A stretch of 64,000 nt of DNA from an uncultured Candidatus Nitrosopumilus sp. (lineage in GTDB: Archaea > Thermoproteota > Nitrososphaeria > Nitrososphaerales > Nitrosopumilaceae), in the NCBI GenBank assembly GCA_905612485.1, contig CAJQSE010000005.1:24848-88847 (forward strand), given 5' to 3'. Positions within the stretch are counted from its first letter, which is position 1, and every line of letters begins with the position of its first letter. The notes under the pieces are model-generated. The model made no database searches and was not told the origin of the DNA. It saw only the letters and a program-made list of their open reading frames with translations. Positions 38,402-47,519 of the stretch are shown here, in pieces. A program made the translations under genes and the position numbers.

Positions 38402-39865
38402 ATGATATTTTTTGATATGAAAAAAGAGTTATCCTCTGCATTAAACTATGCATTAAACAAAGGATTTCAAATTCATCCAGATGCATTTAAAATTTTAGAT
38501 GAAATTACAGATGTGAAACAATTAGAGAAAATAATAAAAGAAATTATTAAAGAAAAAACTAAACAGAAATTGTTTCAAATTAATCAAAATGATTTAGAAA
38601 TATATCTTGGAATAAAAGATGATCTTAATCTTCAAAATGAAATGAAGATATTATCAGATCCCACTAGTAAAATCACATCAGGAGAGGGGGTTAAAGGATA
38701 CAATGCCTTGTTTTCTAGTCGTTTTAACAAACTTAAACGAATTGTCTCTGATAGACCAGAATCAAAGATGATAAAATCCATATCAGTTGTTAAAACAACA
38801 AAATTAGAAAATGATGTGTATGTGTGTGGATTGCTTACCACACGAAATACTGAAAGAAACATCACAAAATTAGTTTTAGAAGACCTTTCAGGCTCACTTG
38901 AGGGTATTATTTTTGATGAGGAATTACAAAAAACTGCGGGAACTTTATTAATTGATCAATTTATTATGGCACGAGTAGCTACAGCTAAAAATTCAGGATT
39001 AATGATTAAAGATTTGATTTTGCCTGATATTCCAGATCAAAAAATTAACAAATCAGAAAGTGAAGTATATGCTGTATTTTTATCTGATTTACATATTGGA
39101 AGTAAATATTTCATGGAGGAGGAATTAATTGAATTTGTAACTTGGTTATCTAGTTCTGATCCTGTTGCTAGAAAAGTTCGTTTTGTCTTAATTGGTGGTG
39201 ATATAGTTGATGGTGTTGGAATATATCCAAATCAGAATAAAGAGTTAGTTTGTCAAACAGTTGAAGAACAATTACAAAAAGCAGAAAATTTACTAGATAA
39301 AATTCCAAAAAATATCAAAATTATCATTATGCCTGGAAATCATGACCCAGGAAGAAGAGCCCTGCCTCAACCTGCAATACCACAAAAGTACAATTCAGGT
39401 TTATGGGAAAGAGAAAATATTGAAATGGTTGGAAATCCAGCTCTGGTCTCATTAAATGGAGTTAAGGTATTGATGTTTCATGGTCAAAGTATAGATGATA
39501 TTGTAAAAACTACTCCTGGTCTAAGTTATGATAGACCTACAGATGTTATGAAAAATCTTCTTAGAGCTAGACATCTAAGTCCAGTTTATGGTAGTTCAAC
39601 ACCAATAGCACCAGAAGTAGAAGATCTTTTAGTAATTGAAGATATTCCAGATATTTTTCATGTAGGACATGTACATAAGGCTCAATTAGATATGTACAAG
39701 GGAATTTTATTAGTTAATTCGGGGTCTTGGCAAAAACAAACACCTTTCCAAGCAAGTGTTGGAATGGTTCCAAATCCAGGTCTTGCTATTATTGTAAATC
39801 TAAAAACTTTCCAAGTATTACATGAGAATTATAGTTCAAACTCAAATAATGTCTTGCAAAGTTAA
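38402..39865 (+). CDS. polB: DNA polymerase D small subunit DP1 (3'-5' exonuclease)
   Basis: The C-terminal half is a calcineurin-like phosphoesterase with intact metal ligands: 'FLSDLHIGSKYF', 'IGGDIVDGVGIYPNQ', 'MPGNHDPGRRALPQPAIP', 'MFHGQSIDD' and 'HVGHVHKAQL'. Proofreading should therefore be active. An OB-fold region precedes it (about residues 110-210). DP1 pairs with DP2 (encoded at 44142) in the replicative polymerase of archaea. A start at M6 (MKKELSS) is possible. Its 3' end overlaps the convergent cdc6 gene by 24 bp. Confidence 0.95.
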   Translation: MIFFDMKKELSSALNYALNKGFQIHPDAFKILDEITDVKQLEKIIKEIIKEKTKQKLFQINQNDLEIYLGIKDDLNLQNEMKILSDPTSKITSGEGVKGYNALFSSRFNKLKRIVSDRPESKMIKSISVVKTTKLENDVYVCGLLTTRNTERNITKLVLEDLSGSLEGIIFDEELQKTAGTLLIDQFIMARVATAKNSGLMIKDLILPDIPDQKINKSESEVYAVFLSDLHIGSKYFMEEELIEFVTWLSSSDPVARKVRFVLIGGDIVDGVGIYPNQNKELVCQTVEEQLQKAENLLDKIPKNIKIIIMPGNHDPGRRALPQPAIPQKYNSGLWERENIEMVGNPALVSLNGVKVLMFHGQSIDDIVKTTPGLSYDRPTDVMKNLLRARHLSPVYGSSTPIAPEVEDLLVIEDIPDIFHVGHVHKAQLDMYKGILLVNSGSWQKQTPFQASVGMVPNPGLAIIVNLKTFQVLHENYSSNSNNVLQS

Positions 39866-41050
39866 TTCATCTTTGAAAGATTTTTTAATCATTTCTGATG
39901 AAACTGTTAGTTTGTATTTTTTAGTTCTTCCATGAATTCCCTGATGAATTAATCTTCCAGAGATAATTCCAGATAATTCAATTTCACTTAACATTTGAGT
40001 AACTCGTCTTTGAGTTAATCCATCTTTTCCAACTACTTTACAGAGATTTTTGTAAGAAGAGTAAATCTCACCAGTAGATGACCCATTAGCCTTCATTATG
40101 GCTAAAAGTACTAATTTTTCATGTAGGGGGTATGATTTTAGAGAGGCTTCTTCTTTATTTTCTTCAATTTTTAGAGAGGCTTCTCTAACATGTTCAATTG
40201 TAACTTTATCAGATTGTTGTCTTTCAGCAAGTTCTCCAGCTACTCGAAGTAAATCAATTGCTCTTCTTGCATCACCATGTTCTCCTCCAGCAAGTGCAGC
40301 ACAGAGATTTAACGCAGGGTCTTCTACAGCGTTTTCAATAAAAGATTCTTTGATTCTTTCTTCTAGAATCTTTTTAATTTGTTCAACATTATAATTAGTA
40401 AATACAATTTCTTCTTCACCTAAACTACTGATTACTCTAGGATCAAGTTTTTCTTTGAATGTTAAGTCGTTTGAAATTCCCACCATAGTTAAAGATCCAA
40501 CCTCTAATTGCTCATTTGCTCTTGTTAATTGATATAGAATATCTTTACCAGTTTTTACAACTAGTTGAGCAAGATAATCAATTTCATCAATTACAAAAAC
40601 TGCATTAAGTTTCTCTGTACTAATTCTATTTAGGAGTCTTTTGAAGACTTCACTAATAGCAAGCCCAGTTGTAGGTAATTCTTTCTCATTTAGGCCTAAT
40701 TGCCTGCCTATACTAACTAATAATCCGTATAATGTTGTCTCGTTTTTAGAATTTGAATATATTAATTTTATTGGAAAATTTGATTTCTCAACTCTTTCTT
40801 GAATTTTTAAAAGAACTTTTTTAACAACTAAAGTTTTACCAGTTCCAGGTTTACCATAGACTAGTAAATTGGAAGGTCTAGATTGTTTTAGAATTGGTAA
40901 TAATGATTGAGTAACTTGTTCTTGTTCAGAATCTCTATGAAAAATAATATTTGGAATATATGTAAAATGAAGAATTTCCCTATTTTTAATAATAGATTTT
41001 CCAGATTCTGCTGCATCAAGCATTCTATCAATAGGGTCAGACATACTCAC
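39842..41050 (-). CDS. cdc6: Origin recognition protein Orc1/Cdc6
   Basis: The AAA+ module has Walker A 'YGKPGTGKTLVVKKVL', Walker B 'VFVIDEIDYLAQ', sensor 'LTMVGISNDLTFKEKLDPRV', and sensor 2 'GEHGDARRAIDLLR'. A C-terminal winged helix ('GLTQRRVTQMLSEIELSGIISGRL') contacts origin DNA. The track opens at GTG 41050; ATG 41044 (MSDPIDRML), with AGGTG upstream, is the likely start. It initiates replication by binding origin boxes, and such boxes lie about 150 bp from its 5' end. Only this copy is visible here. Confidence 0.95.
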   Translation of the reverse strand: MSMSDPIDRMLDAAESGKSIIKNREILHFTYIPNIIFHRDSEQEQVTQSLLPILKQSRPSNLLVYGKPGTGKTLVVKKVLLKIQERVEKSNFPIKLIYSNSKNETTLYGLLVSIGRQLGLNEKELPTTGLAISEVFKRLLNRISTEKLNAVFVIDEIDYLAQLVVKTGKDILYQLTRANEQLEVGSLTMVGISNDLTFKEKLDPRVISSLGEEEIVFTNYNVEQIKKILEERIKESFIENAVEDPALNLCAALAGGEHGDARRAIDLLRVAGELAERQQSDKVTIEHVREASLKIEENKEEASLKSYPLHEKLVLLAIMKANGSSTGEIYSSYKNLCKVVGKDGLTQRRVTQMLSEIELSGIISGRLIHQGIHGRTKKYKLTVSSEMIKKSFKDELTLQDII

Positions 41051-41193
41051 ACACCTTCATTTCTTCTCTGTTCCATCTTACTCATTTCCTAATAAAGAGA
41101 GTATAGAATATAATAGTAATTCTAGTTTAGTTTATGATTAGTTATTTTTAATTAGATTTAGATTTTCTAAAAAAATAAATTAAAAAAAAGATA

Positions 41194-41217
41194 GAGTGGA
41201 AATACTGGTGTGTGGGT
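41194..41217 (-). repeat. ORB-like element 3 (inverted, degenerate)
   Basis: On the minus strand it reads ACCCACACACCAGTATTTCCACTC. It shares TATTTCCACTC exactly with ORB2, and the C-rich 5' part is present in weaker form. It faces the other two boxes across the AT-rich stretch. Confidence 0.6.
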
Positions 41218-41291
41218 CTTTATGTTGGAAAAAAGATTAGTTAACAAATTGTTAATTTTATATGAAGAAAATCAAAAAAAACCTCATTTTA

Positions 41292-41314
41292 ACCCCTATA
41301 TTTCCAATCCAGGC
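41292..41314 (+). repeat. ORB-like element 1
   Basis: acccctatatttccaatccaggc matches ORB2 at 21 of 23 positions. The C-run followed by TTTCCA corresponds to the known archaeal origin recognition box read on its complementary strand (TGGAAAC...GGGG). Confidence 0.7.
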
Positions 41315-41352
41315 GTTAAGAAACCTATTAACATTGTGAATATCCCAAAACT

Positions 41353-41375
41353 ACCCCTCTATTTCCACTCCAGGC
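41353..41375 (+). repeat. ORB-like element 2
   Basis: acccctctatttccactccaggc repeats ORB1 in direct orientation, 61 bp downstream of it (start to start), close to six helical turns. Confidence 0.7.
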
Positions 41376-41432
41376 ATGATTATTTCATTATTAGGGGGTT
41401 TAAATTAGAAATTAAATGTTAATAATAGAAAA

Positions 41433-41453
41433 TAGGCTAGGCGTAGGCTAGGC
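41433..41453 (+). repeat. Direct repeat TAGGCTAGGC x2
   Basis: TAGGCTAGGC-G-TAGGCTAGGC is a GC-rich 10-bp direct repeat inside the origin region. The AGGC core also ends both ORB elements. Confidence 0.55.
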
Positions 41454-41456
41454 AGT

Positions 41457-41515
41457 CAATGTTAACAAACTACAATGTTAACAAAACTGATCAGATCACT
41501 TCAACCGTTAACATT
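41457..41515. repeat. CAATGTTAACAAA repeats in the origin
   Basis: CAATGTTAACAAA occurs at 41457-41469 and 41473-41485 (16-bp period), with an inverted GTTAACATT at 41507-41515. Related TTAACATTG and AGTTAACAAA copies are at 41328 and about 41239. They are distinct from the ORB boxes. Confidence 0.55.
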
Positions 41516-41535
41516 AGATCAATTAGATCTCAAAG

Positions 41536-41934
41536 ATGGCAAAAAAGAGAATTAGAATAGATATGGAGGATGCAGACGGTGCTCGTTATGATATTAAATT
41601 AGAAGGAAATGTGACTAGAGATAAGGTCCTCAAAATATTTGAAATGATGGATTTGATGAATATTGAAGAAGAGGAAGAAAAATCTATTAAAATGGATTCT
41701 ATAGGCTCTAAAATTTGGCATATTACAGATAAATTCTTCCCAATGGGTAAATTCACTTCGACTAATATTCTTGAAAAATATGAAGATGAATTTAATGAGC
41801 CTGTAAAACTTAGTGTAATATCGACATATTTGTCACGATTTGCAGCAAAAGGTAGGGTGGATAGAATAAGAACTGGCCGAGAATGGACCTATCAATCAAT
41901 TAGGATTGCTCAAAAACAACAATCTATCAAATAA
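41536..41934 (+). CDS. Origin-adjacent winged-helix-like protein, function unknown
   Basis: The 132-residue, charged, cytosolic protein has an N-terminal beta segment ('KKRIRIDMEDADGARYDIKLEGNVTRDKVLKIFEMM'). Its C-terminal half looks like a winged helix ('WHITDKFFPMGKFTSTNILEKYEDEF...SVISTYLSRFAAKGRVDRIRTGREWTYQ'). The gene starts right after the origin repeats, so it may be an origin-binding or origin-linked regulator; that is inference from place and fold. I do not recognise a named family. Confidence 0.7.
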   Translation: MAKKRIRIDMEDADGARYDIKLEGNVTRDKVLKIFEMMDLMNIEEEEEKSIKMDSIGSKIWHITDKFFPMGKFTSTNILEKYEDEFNEPVKLSVISTYLSRFAAKGRVDRIRTGREWTYQSIRIAQKQQSIK

Positions 41935-44141: not shown

Positions 44142-47100
44142 ATGTCTGAAAACGATGCAATTTCTCGTATTCGTCATATTGACATGCCAGACTATTATTT
44201 GGATTATTACTCAAATCTCTCAACTGAGACATATTCAATATTTGAGCATGCAGCATTAGCAAAATCTACTTTAGTTGATTCTTCAGGCATAATTGAGCCT
44301 AAAATTGCATTTGATTTAGCAGATCGAGTTTCAAAAATGCACGATATTGATATTGCTGAATCATTAAGAGAAATTTTAAAAATTGAATCCAAAGAACTTT
44401 CTGCATTAATTTTAGCTAAAGACATTGCTTTAGGAAAATATTCACTTCCAGATGCTTCTTTAGAAGATAAACTAGATCTTGCAGTTCGTGTAGGTTTAGC
44501 AATAATTACTGAGGGTGTTACTATTGCACCTCTACAAGGAATTAGTGAAGTAAAAATAAAGAAAAATAAAGATGGAACTGATTATCTTTCAGTTTCAATT
44601 GCAGGACCTATGCGTGCAGCCGGTGGAACAGAATCTGCAGTCACTTTACTAATTGCAGATTATGTTAGAAAAATAGCAGGATTATCAAAATTCCAAGCAA
44701 ATTCTTTTGATGATGAAACAGGTAGGTTTGTTGAAGAATTACGAATTTATGAAAGAGAAGCTAGTAGCTTTCAATTTCATATATTAGATGAGGATATTGA
44801 ACATGTTATTTCTAATCTTCCAGTTGAATTGGCTGGTGTAGATACTGATCCATATGAAGTTGTAAATCATAAGGGAATGACTAGGATTAAAACTGATAGA
44901 GTTAGAGGTGGAGCTTTACGTGTTCTTAATGATGGTTTGATTGGAAGATCAAAAAAACTACTCAAAAGAGTGGAAATGTACAATTTAGATGGTTGGGAGT
45001 GGCTTGGTGACCTTAAAGGTGCAGTTCAAACAGGTGATAATCAGGAAGATGCTGCAACAAAAAGAATGCGTGAGGTGATTACAGGCAGATCCGTTTTATC
45101 TATGCCTAACAAATTAGGTGGATTTCGGCTTCGATATGGAAGGGCTTGTAATACTGGTTTTGCAGCAATAGGATTTCATCCAGTTGTTGCTGAAATTTTA
45201 GATCATACAATTGCTGTTGGGACTCAAGTCAAAACTGATATTCCTGGAAAGGGAGCAACTGTTGCATTTGTTGATTCGATTGAAACTCCAACTGTACGTC
45301 TTGATAATGGTGACGTTGTAAAAATTAAAGATGTTAAACATGGAATAGAAATTAAAAATAAAATTGAAAAAATATTACATTTAGGTGATGTTTTAATTAC
45401 ATTTGGAGATTTTCTTGAAAATAATGCTCAACTAATACCATCAGGATATGTTGAGGAAATTTGGATAGAAGAATTAAAGTTAATTATTTCAAAATTTGAT
45501 ACTGAAAATCAGTATCTAAAACAATTTTTAATTAAAATACCTACAATTGAAGAAGCATTAAAAATTTCAATTAATTTCCAGTTTTCATTACATCCACATT
45601 ATCTTTATTTTTGGGATAAAGTTTCATCAGAAGAATTGGTTCAACTTTTAGAACCAAAAATTTTTAATGAAAATAATATTGAATATCCAATTAAAATAAA
45701 AAAAATTCTTGAGAAATTAGGAACTCCTCATAAAGTTAAAAATGAATATATAATTTTAGAAAATGAAGAAGCAAAAATTTTCTTTAATTTATTATTTATA
45801 ACAAAACCAATAATTGATGATTCCTCAGTTCCTCAGATTTTAACAAAATCATCAAAAATTAAAATTAATAATAAATTTTCAACTTCTGTTGGAATTAGAA
45901 TAGGAAGACCTGAAAAAGCATCAGCTCGACAAATGAAGCCTCCTACCCATGTATTATTTCCAATTTCTGATAAAGGCGGACCAACAAGAGATCTTCTTAA
46001 AGCATCACGAAATCAGCACTTTTTTGCAAATATTTACAATAGACATTGTTCACAATGTGATGAACCATCAATTGGAATAAAGTGCTCTAAATGTGGTGAA
46101 AAAACAATAATTACTTTTAGATGTAATAATTGTAGAGATACACTAACAGAACCATATTGTAAAAAATGTAAACGTAAAACTCCTGCACATTCTCATAAAG
46201 AATTTCCATTAAAATCACGATTACTTTTAGCTCAAGAAAAAATGGGTATTCGTGCAAAAGAACCTTTCAAAGGTCTCAAAGAATTAATCAGTAAGGATAA
46301 AATCGCAGAACCTCTTGAAAAGGGACTTGTACGTCAAAATCTAGGATTAACTACATTCAAAGATGGAACTATTCGATTTGATGCAACAAATTCTCCTTTA
46401 ACCCAATTCAAACCATCATGGATTGGAACTTCTATTGAAAAATTAAAGGAATTAGGTTATTCTCATGACATTGATGGAAAACCACTTGAAAATATAGATC
46501 AAATTATTGAACTTCGAATGCAAGATGTAGTAATTCCTAATGAAAGTGGAAGATATTTGGTTTCTACTTGTAAATACATTGATACACTTTTAGTAAAATT
46601 TTATGGTAAATCTTCATTTTATAATGTAAAAAATACTGAAGAATTAATTGGCCATTTGATTATTGGTTTAGCACCTCATACCTCTGTTGGAATTGTAGGT
46701 CGAATAATTGGATACACTGAAACTCATGTTTGTTTTGCAACACCAAATTGGCATTCAGCAAAAAGACGAGATGCTGATGGTGATGCTGATTCTATTATGT
46801 TGTTGATGGACAGTTTACTTAATTTTTCACGACAATTTCTTTCTGATAGAATAGGAGGTTTAATGGATGCACCATTACTTATTCAACCCCTTGTTTTGCC
46901 TCACGAATCTCAACCTCAGGCACATAATCTTGAAGTAACAAAAATACTTCCTTTAGAATTTTTTGAATCAACAATTCAACAAAGTAAAGCATCAGATGTT
47001 ACTTCAGTTGAAATTATTAAATCAAGATTAGAAACTAAGAGACAATTTTATGATTATCATTTTACTCATTCAACTTCATCATTAACAACTTCCAAATCTC

Positions 47101-47519
47101 GGAGTGCATATTCAACACTAGGTTCAATGCTTGATAAATTTGATATGCAAGTTAGAAATGCTGAATTAATTGATGTTGTTAATCCATCTGAACTTGTTTC
47201 AAATGTAATTTCAACACATCTTGTTCCAGATATTATGGGAAATCTTAGAGCATATGCAAGACAAAGTTTCAGATGTACTGCATGTGGAAAATCATATCGT
47301 CGAATGCCTCTTATTCAAACATGTGTGTGTGGTCATAAACTAATTGCTACAATTACAAGAGGTTCAGTTGAAAAATATCTCAAACTTGCAAAAAGACTAG
47401 TTGAAAAATATGATGTTGGTGAATATCAACGTGGACGAATTTATGCTTTATCTGATGAAATAGAATTAGTTTTTGGTAAAAGTCAGGGAGATCAATCCCT
47501 CCTTACAGATTATGCTTAA
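44142..47519 (+). CDS. polC: DNA polymerase D large subunit DP2
   Basis: The 1125-residue protein has the conserved core of DP2: 'AGPMRAAGGTESAVTLLIADYVRK' in the N-terminal part, and the catalytic 'WHSAKRRDADGDADSIMLLMD' near residue 880, with the DADGD acidic pair of the two-barrel active site. Zinc fingers are at about 630-680 ('CSQCDEP...CSKCG', 'CNNC...CKKC') and 1045-1070 ('CTACGKSYRRMPLIQTCVCG'). No intein is seen. It extends DNA with DP1, whose gene lies 4.3 kb away across the origin. Confidence 0.96.
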   Translation: MSENDAISRIRHIDMPDYYLDYYSNLSTETYSIFEHAALAKSTLVDSSGIIEPKIAFDLADRVSKMHDIDIAESLREILKIESKELSALILAKDIALGKYSLPDASLEDKLDLAVRVGLAIITEGVTIAPLQGISEVKIKKNKDGTDYLSVSIAGPMRAAGGTESAVTLLIADYVRKIAGLSKFQANSFDDETGRFVEELRIYEREASSFQFHILDEDIEHVISNLPVELAGVDTDPYEVVNHKGMTRIKTDRVRGGALRVLNDGLIGRSKKLLKRVEMYNLDGWEWLGDLKGAVQTGDNQEDAATKRMREVITGRSVLSMPNKLGGFRLRYGRACNTGFAAIGFHPVVAEILDHTIAVGTQVKTDIPGKGATVAFVDSIETPTVRLDNGDVVKIKDVKHGIEIKNKIEKILHLGDVLITFGDFLENNAQLIPSGYVEEIWIEELKLIISKFDTENQYLKQFLIKIPTIEEALKISINFQFSLHPHYLYFWDKVSSEELVQLLEPKIFNENNIEYPIKIKKILEKLGTPHKVKNEYIILENEEAKIFFNLLFITKPIIDDSSVPQILTKSSKIKINNKFSTSVGIRIGRPEKASARQMKPPTHVLFPISDKGGPTRDLLKASRNQHFFANIYNRHCSQCDEPSIGIKCSKCGEKTIITFRCNNCRDTLTEPYCKKCKRKTPAHSHKEFPLKSRLLLAQEKMGIRAKEPFKGLKELISKDKIAEPLEKGLVRQNLGLTTFKDGTIRFDATNSPLTQFKPSWIGTSIEKLKELGYSHDIDGKPLENIDQIIELRMQDVVIPNESGRYLVSTCKYIDTLLVKFYGKSSFYNVKNTEELIGHLIIGLAPHTSVGIVGRIIGYTETHVCFATPNWHSAKRRDADGDADSIMLLMDSLLNFSRQFLSDRIGGLMDAPLLIQPLVLPHESQPQAHNLEVTKILPLEFFESTIQQSKASDVTSVEIIKSRLETKRQFYDYHFTHSTSSLTTSKSRSAYSTLGSMLDKFDMQVRNAELIDVVNPSELVSNVISTHLVPDIMGNLRAYARQSFRCTACGKSYRRMPLIQTCVCGHKLIATITRGSVEKYLKLAKRLVEKYDVGEYQRGRIYALSDEIELVFGKSQGDQSLLTDYA

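Follow-up and report, generated by a model that had tools for sequence, protein, structure and literature searches.

Does the intergenic gap at 41051–41535 of the window (the whole 64 kb stretch of DNA that was analysed) hold the start of chromosome replication in this marine ammonia-oxidising archaeon, and which conserved elements does it carry? We conclude that replication almost certainly starts here. Taken as a whole, our reading is of an oriC with four origin recognition boxes (ORBs), Cdc6 and MCM, orthologous to the mapped origin of Nitrosopumilus maritimus and equipped with TTMACA repeats as a second element; we place its probability at about 95%. The origin is of a type already known, an orthologue of a known origin and no new kind. 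The sequence of the locus, its uniqueness, its conservation and a switch in strand asymmetry are established and are described in turn below.

ORBs and neighbouring replication genes

The genes, the ORBs and the least stable part of the gap are arranged as follows.

38402–39865, plus strand: DNA polymerase D small subunit (DP1; Pfam DNA_pol_E_B, 2.9e-23)
39842–41050, minus strand: cdc6/orc1, replication initiator, 402 amino acids; GTG start at 41050 or in-frame ATG at 41044
41051–41070, plus strand: box D, the fourth ORB, degenerate (core match 12 of 15) and immediately next to the cdc6 start; ACACCTTCATTTCTT
41142–41181: 40 bp segment with the lowest nearest-neighbour stability in the gap, between boxes D and C
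41194–41216, minus strand: box C, an inverted, degenerate ORB with its G-run towards box A; GAGTGGAAATACTGGTGT(GTGGG); inverted repeats; conserved
41292–41314, plus strand: box A, ORB; ACCCCTATATTTCCAATCCAGGC
41353–41375, plus strand: box B, ORB; ACCCCTCTATTTCCACTCCAGGC
41536–41934, plus strand: divergent, single-copy gene for a 132-amino-acid winged-helix protein with a Penicillinase_R/BlaI-like C-terminal part
44142–47519, plus strand: probable DNA polymerase D large subunit (DP2); 1125-amino-acid ORF with DP2-like sequence

The gap is flanked by cdc6 on the minus strand and the winged-helix gene on the plus strand, which diverge from it. The cdc6 product matches TIGR02928 (4.1e-110) and the Pfam families Cdc6_lid (3.9e-25) and Cdc6_C, a winged helix (1.3e-20), and the closest solved structures are PDB entries 2v1u (2e-84) and 2qby_A from Sulfolobus. 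By these matches the adjoining gene encodes Orc1/Cdc6, as the initial annotation had stated, and the gap shows the orc1/cdc6 adjacency of an oriC1-type origin. DP1 is convergent with cdc6 and overlaps it by 24 bp, forming a replication-gene island, and the ORF that we name DP2 from knowledge of the family, a probable assignment, follows 2.2 kb past the winged-helix gene. Linkage of cdc6 to DP1 has been described in Euryarchaea (PMC2643942). A second, distant Cdc6-like gene (∼30–33% identical) is present in other genomes (G145:C1:1542751-1543890, G030, G035, G146 and G238); no such gene turned up in the incomplete assembly that contains the window.

Boxes A and B form a direct repeat with starts exactly 61 bp apart, as first described, and are the sole matches at ≤3 mismatches both in the 64 kb window (0.00 expected from 100 shuffles) and in the 948 kb assembly (74% complete, 50 contigs). 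Read on the other strand they match the published archaeal ORB consensus (Ori-Finder 2 table; PMC4164010), in agreement with the earlier identification of the TTTCCA core and C-run as an ORB on its complementary strand. Each box scores 14/15 over the ORB core and has the C/G run, giving the gap at least two consensus-matching ORBs with a G-string, as in Orc1/Cdc6-dependent origins of the oriC1 type; the full 20-mer has 3–4 mismatches to the consensus because TCCAGG stands in place of the TGGA half of the dyad. The background of ORB-like sequence is five matches in 800 kb sampled from two closed genomes.

Box C has 83% complementarity to box A and 78% to box B. A 75 bp AT-rich stretch (AT 0.79) separates the G-run of box C from the C-run of box A, which faces it, so that the third box lies inverted across AT-rich DNA as proposed, but this stretch is not the least stable segment. 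The earlier count of three boxes was also incomplete: all three are present, and the fourth, box D, had been overlooked. Box D (ACACCTTCATTTC) is ORB-like and touches the cdc6 start; it is degenerate but conserved in 85 aligned gaps, and the same place in other families holds a clear ORB, for example ACCCCTCCGCTTCCATTGGAGG. Part of this conservation may be unrelated to ORB function because the ACACC end overlaps the cdc6 ribosome-binding region. Box C is inverted relative to A, B and D, and the gap has segments of AT 0.79–0.91, giving it the inverted ORBs around AT-rich DNA that mark an oriC1-type origin. The arrangement +,−,+,(+) is repeated within the order, and in the wider phylum it recurs as +,−,+.

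The segment at 41142–41181 is a candidate unwinding element and/or the cdc6 promoter region. Of 28 Nitrosopumilaceae gaps, those of GC-rich genomes included, 25 are least stable in the D–C interval; the automatic placement of box C went wrong in two or three divergent gaps of this comparison. Because the cdc6 promoter must also fit there, the D–C interval is just one candidate unwinding site.

By analogy with the archaea that have been studied, Cdc6 from the adjoining gene would bind the four ORBs (+,−,+,+; two strong and two degenerate) and would load MCM onto the AT-rich DNA flanked by the inverted boxes, from which two forks would depart in opposite directions. Through box D, at the cdc6 start codon, Cdc6 probably also restrains its own expression, again by analogy with those archaea.

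Conservation and strand asymmetry

The boxes were found in 200 of the 250 genomes of the family and in 122 of the 131 that are near-complete, usually as two boxes on the same strand 61–62 bp apart, and they adjoin cdc6 wherever coordinates were listed and compared. The check for conservation in related thaumarchaea suggested by the initial annotation therefore came out in favour of the origin. Among 85 distinct close sequences the gap measures 455–702 bp, with a median of 484. The +,−,+(,+) layout is shared by canonical ORBs of other families and orders. Nitrosopumilaceae have TCCAGG as the outer ORB half where other families have the canonical TGGA (ACCCCTTTATTTCCACTGGA), so the remark that the GC-rich flanks are lineage-specific was right. 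G111 (G111:C39 and G111:C86) and G177 have four box matches rather than two, perhaps reflecting a strain mixture or a duplicated origin.

Strand asymmetry was analysed in twenty 20 kb stretches (400 kb) from each of two closed, congeneric genomes, G006 (1,360,076 bp; cdc6 97% identical) and G145 (1,645,259 bp), the latter of which we take to be N. maritimus SCM1. In both, the strand-balanced third-position AT skew is below zero on the cdc6 side and above zero on the other side, changing sign at cdc6 and directly opposite; this placement is the best among all rotations. The differences are −0.269 and −0.184, with none of 2000 permutations giving a value as large (p < 0.0005). The two closed genomes thus show the strand-asymmetry switch of an oriC1-type origin at this locus. 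The window's own 89 kb contig is consistent with this, having an AT-skew shift of the expected sign (permutation p = 0.002) that is broad, best at ∼27–41 kb of the window with a peak at ∼29–31 kb, and not exactly at the gap. GC skew was rejected as an origin test; it is weak and mostly follows gene orientation (correlation 0.81). The cumulative GC-skew check proposed earlier is therefore uninformative here, and it is the AT skew that carries the signal. Along the G006 and G145 chromosomes the leading strand has T > A in a clean two-part pattern, and GC skew is nearly flat.

TTMACA boxes and the divergent winged-helix gene

Besides the ORBs, the gap contains the following repeats.

41241–41255: TTMACA cluster 1, between inverted box C and box A; TTAACA-N3-TGTTAA
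41328–41340: TTMACA cluster 2, between boxes A and B; TTAACA-N-TGTGAA
41417–41422: TTMACA box TGTTAA
41433–41453, plus strand: direct repeat of TAGGCTAGGC; GGCTAGGC/AGGCGT element, conserved in part
41460–41513: TTMACA cluster 3; TGTTAACA at 41460 and 41476 (16 bp apart), TTAACA at 41508

There are nine TTAACA/TGTTAA hexamers in the gap (ten with one TGTGAA) versus ∼0.8 in shuffles; elsewhere the maximum is four per 486 bp stretch of the window and five in the 800 kb from the two closed genomes. The 85 close gaps have 7–13 TTMACA boxes each, and the boxes are retained in gaps of 45–59% GC. In other families of Thermoproteota TTCACA replaces TTAACA. This idea came from two sequences, L154 and L165, and was then tested on the remaining gaps and on 20 later-fetched gaps from other families. 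Unbiased hexamer rankings put TTAACA at the top in the first group (316 versus 29) and TTCACA at the top, above the ORB hexamers, in the other-family gaps (89 versus 12), the counts being non-independent because the gap sequences within each group are related. For TTCACA the gap also beats every other stretch in four 20 kb controls. Steps of 9, 11 and 15–16 bp between boxes recur in both groups; the 16 bp step is the commonest same-strand spacing of TTMACA boxes and the 9 bp step is also seen in the phylum-wide TTCACA boxes. The information is almost limited to the hexamer, with no ORB-like flanks or G-string around it. The GGCTAGGC/AGGCGT elements are also among the enriched hexamers of Nitrosopumilaceae origins. 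Alongside the ORBs, the TTMACA boxes form a second element conserved in origins of this class, and the repeat set is very old. They are probably bound by a further protein.

The winged-helix protein occurs as a single copy per genome in 15 of the 17 families of the order that were sampled, usually encoded in the same divergent position; it was unmatched in f5 and f17, each represented by a single genome (75% and 91% complete). Among 128 genomes belonging to other families in the phylum, 71 also encode it, and in 28 of these 71 (11 families) the gene is divergent from cdc6 within 1.5 kb. A sequence search gave only weak BlaI/MecI-type matches. The recognition-helix region is conserved, the predicted structure is confident in the winged-helix part only (pTM 0.50), and a fold search with the model returned no PDB match at E ≤ 0.001.

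Genomes in which cdc6 and the winged-helix gene are apart separate the elements. In families f25, f30 and f45 it is cdc6 that has the ORBs upstream, and in f20, f41, f43 and f49 it is the winged-helix gene; 18 of the 18 genomes examined across both groups fit this pattern, with the winged-helix-side ORB resting on a single match in f41 and in some f20 genomes. In the latter four families the ORBs stay with the winged-helix gene although cdc6 is distant, which ties this gene to the origin even without cdc6. TTCACA boxes are present in the f25/f30/f45 group and missing or near chance in the f20/f41/f43/f49 group; they follow the cdc6-side ORBs and are therefore tied to cdc6-adjacent origins. The notion that TTMACA boxes accompany ORBs everywhere was accordingly discarded. 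Origins in f20, f41, f43 and f49 may have become separated from cdc6. At L284, L286, L288, L290, L292, L294 and L296, all from these four families, the 1 kb upstream of the best cdc6 match has no ORBs.

With divergent promoters in the gap and box D right at the start of cdc6, the boxes could be operators for cdc6 and the winged-helix gene only, with replication beginning elsewhere. We regard this as very improbable, given that the AT skew switches at the locus in two closed genomes and that an origin has been mapped in SCM1; moreover, the ORB array is found beside either gene where the two are far apart and so is not simply tied to the cdc6 promoter. The strong origin call made initially is thus upheld by the ORB match, the conservation of the boxes, the AT-skew reversal and the mapped SCM1 origin. 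Additional origins in this organism are possible because the assembly is 74% complete and in 50 contigs.

The TTMACA boxes have two competing explanations of their own. They might be mini-ORBs, recognised by Cdc6 or a second Orc1 paralogue and not by a different protein. In favour of this, every occurrence is at a cdc6-adjacent ORB array, arrays beside the winged-helix gene alone lack them, and euryarchaeal ORB cores such as TTACACTTGAAA loosely resemble TTMACA. We think this unlikely, although it is the stronger of the two: the information is almost confined to TTMACA with nothing ORB-like flanking it, TTAACA and TTCACA interchange among lineages while the ORB core stays constant, and several box-bearing genomes show a single Cdc6. 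Less probable still is an operator by which the winged-helix protein represses its own gene, with no role at the origin. The boxes in the window do lie between the ORBs and that gene, whose product has a conserved recognition-helix region, but in f25, f30 and f45 they remain at the cdc6 ORBs with the gene elsewhere, and the gene's own upstream kilobase has 0–1 TTCACA. This separation makes it unlikely that the boxes are merely the gene's operator. A second origin element bound by a further protein remains our preferred reading.

Comparison with known origins

That the locus is an origin was to be expected; of more interest are the second motif and the winged-helix gene linked to the origin. 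These seem to be new: the open-access literature, with most subscription papers outside the scope of the search, yielded no description of a TTMACA motif with archaeal origins or of a conserved helix-turn-helix neighbour of cdc6. The phylum-wide comparison of gaps separates two cis-elements, the ORBs and the TTMACA boxes, and the winged-helix gene stays beside the ORBs in lineages whose cdc6 has moved away.

The closest known system is the oriC of N. maritimus SCM1, which belongs to the same genus and, taking G145 as SCM1, has the same box pair, spacing, cdc6 gap, divergent winged-helix gene and AT-skew switch, differing in sequence divergence alone. One origin was mapped in SCM1 by marker frequency (Pelve et al. 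2013, as cited in PMC4010727 and PMC5333045), and N. maritimus is listed at 1645 kb with one origin (PMC5333045). For 'Ca. Nitrosocaldus cavascurensis' an origin with ORB repeats before the cdc gene was proposed with Ori-Finder 2 and by analogy with N. maritimus (PMC5797428); the ORB repeats before cdc6 are shared with the window, as are TTAACA boxes in G037 (putatively that organism), but the ORBs have a canonical-type dyad and the winged-helix gene is ∼3 kb away, not adjacent as in the window. The Pyrococcus oriC is accompanied by a cdc6–DP1–DP2 replication island (PMC2643942), and the window likewise has cdc6 beside DP1 and probably DP2 at its origin; neither the winged-helix gene nor TTMACA boxes are described for Pyrococcus.

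In Sulfolobus, oriC1 has the arrangement ORB3–DUE–ORB2 and an essential ucm element bound by UBP, with ORB3–ucm–ORB2 spanning 130 bp; reports of UBP are confined to Sulfolobales and Desulfurococcales, and the same 2025 study asks whether more divergent archaea have UBP-analogous origin proteins (PMC12141716). The boxes and the winged-helix protein supply named sites and a named candidate for that question. Many Thermoproteota origins that are not Sulfolobales-like could, we tentatively suggest at somewhat less than even odds, share regularly spaced TT(A/C)ACA arrays around the ORBs, read by a dedicated non-Orc factor, with the ancient winged-helix protein having a part in initiation, as a functional counterpart of ucm and UBP. 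The TTMACA boxes are proposed as a ucm analogue by position, not by ucm sequence: a second motif is present between the inverted ORBs of the window. Both origins have inverted ORBs around AT-rich DNA beside cdc6 with a non-ORB motif between them, and the ∼120 bp from box C to box A, with TTMACA in the middle, resembles the 130 bp of Sulfolobus. They differ in that Sulfolobus has one 11 bp ucm whereas the window has many TTMACA boxes, and in that Sulfolobus has three origins versus one in the Nitrosopumilus type.
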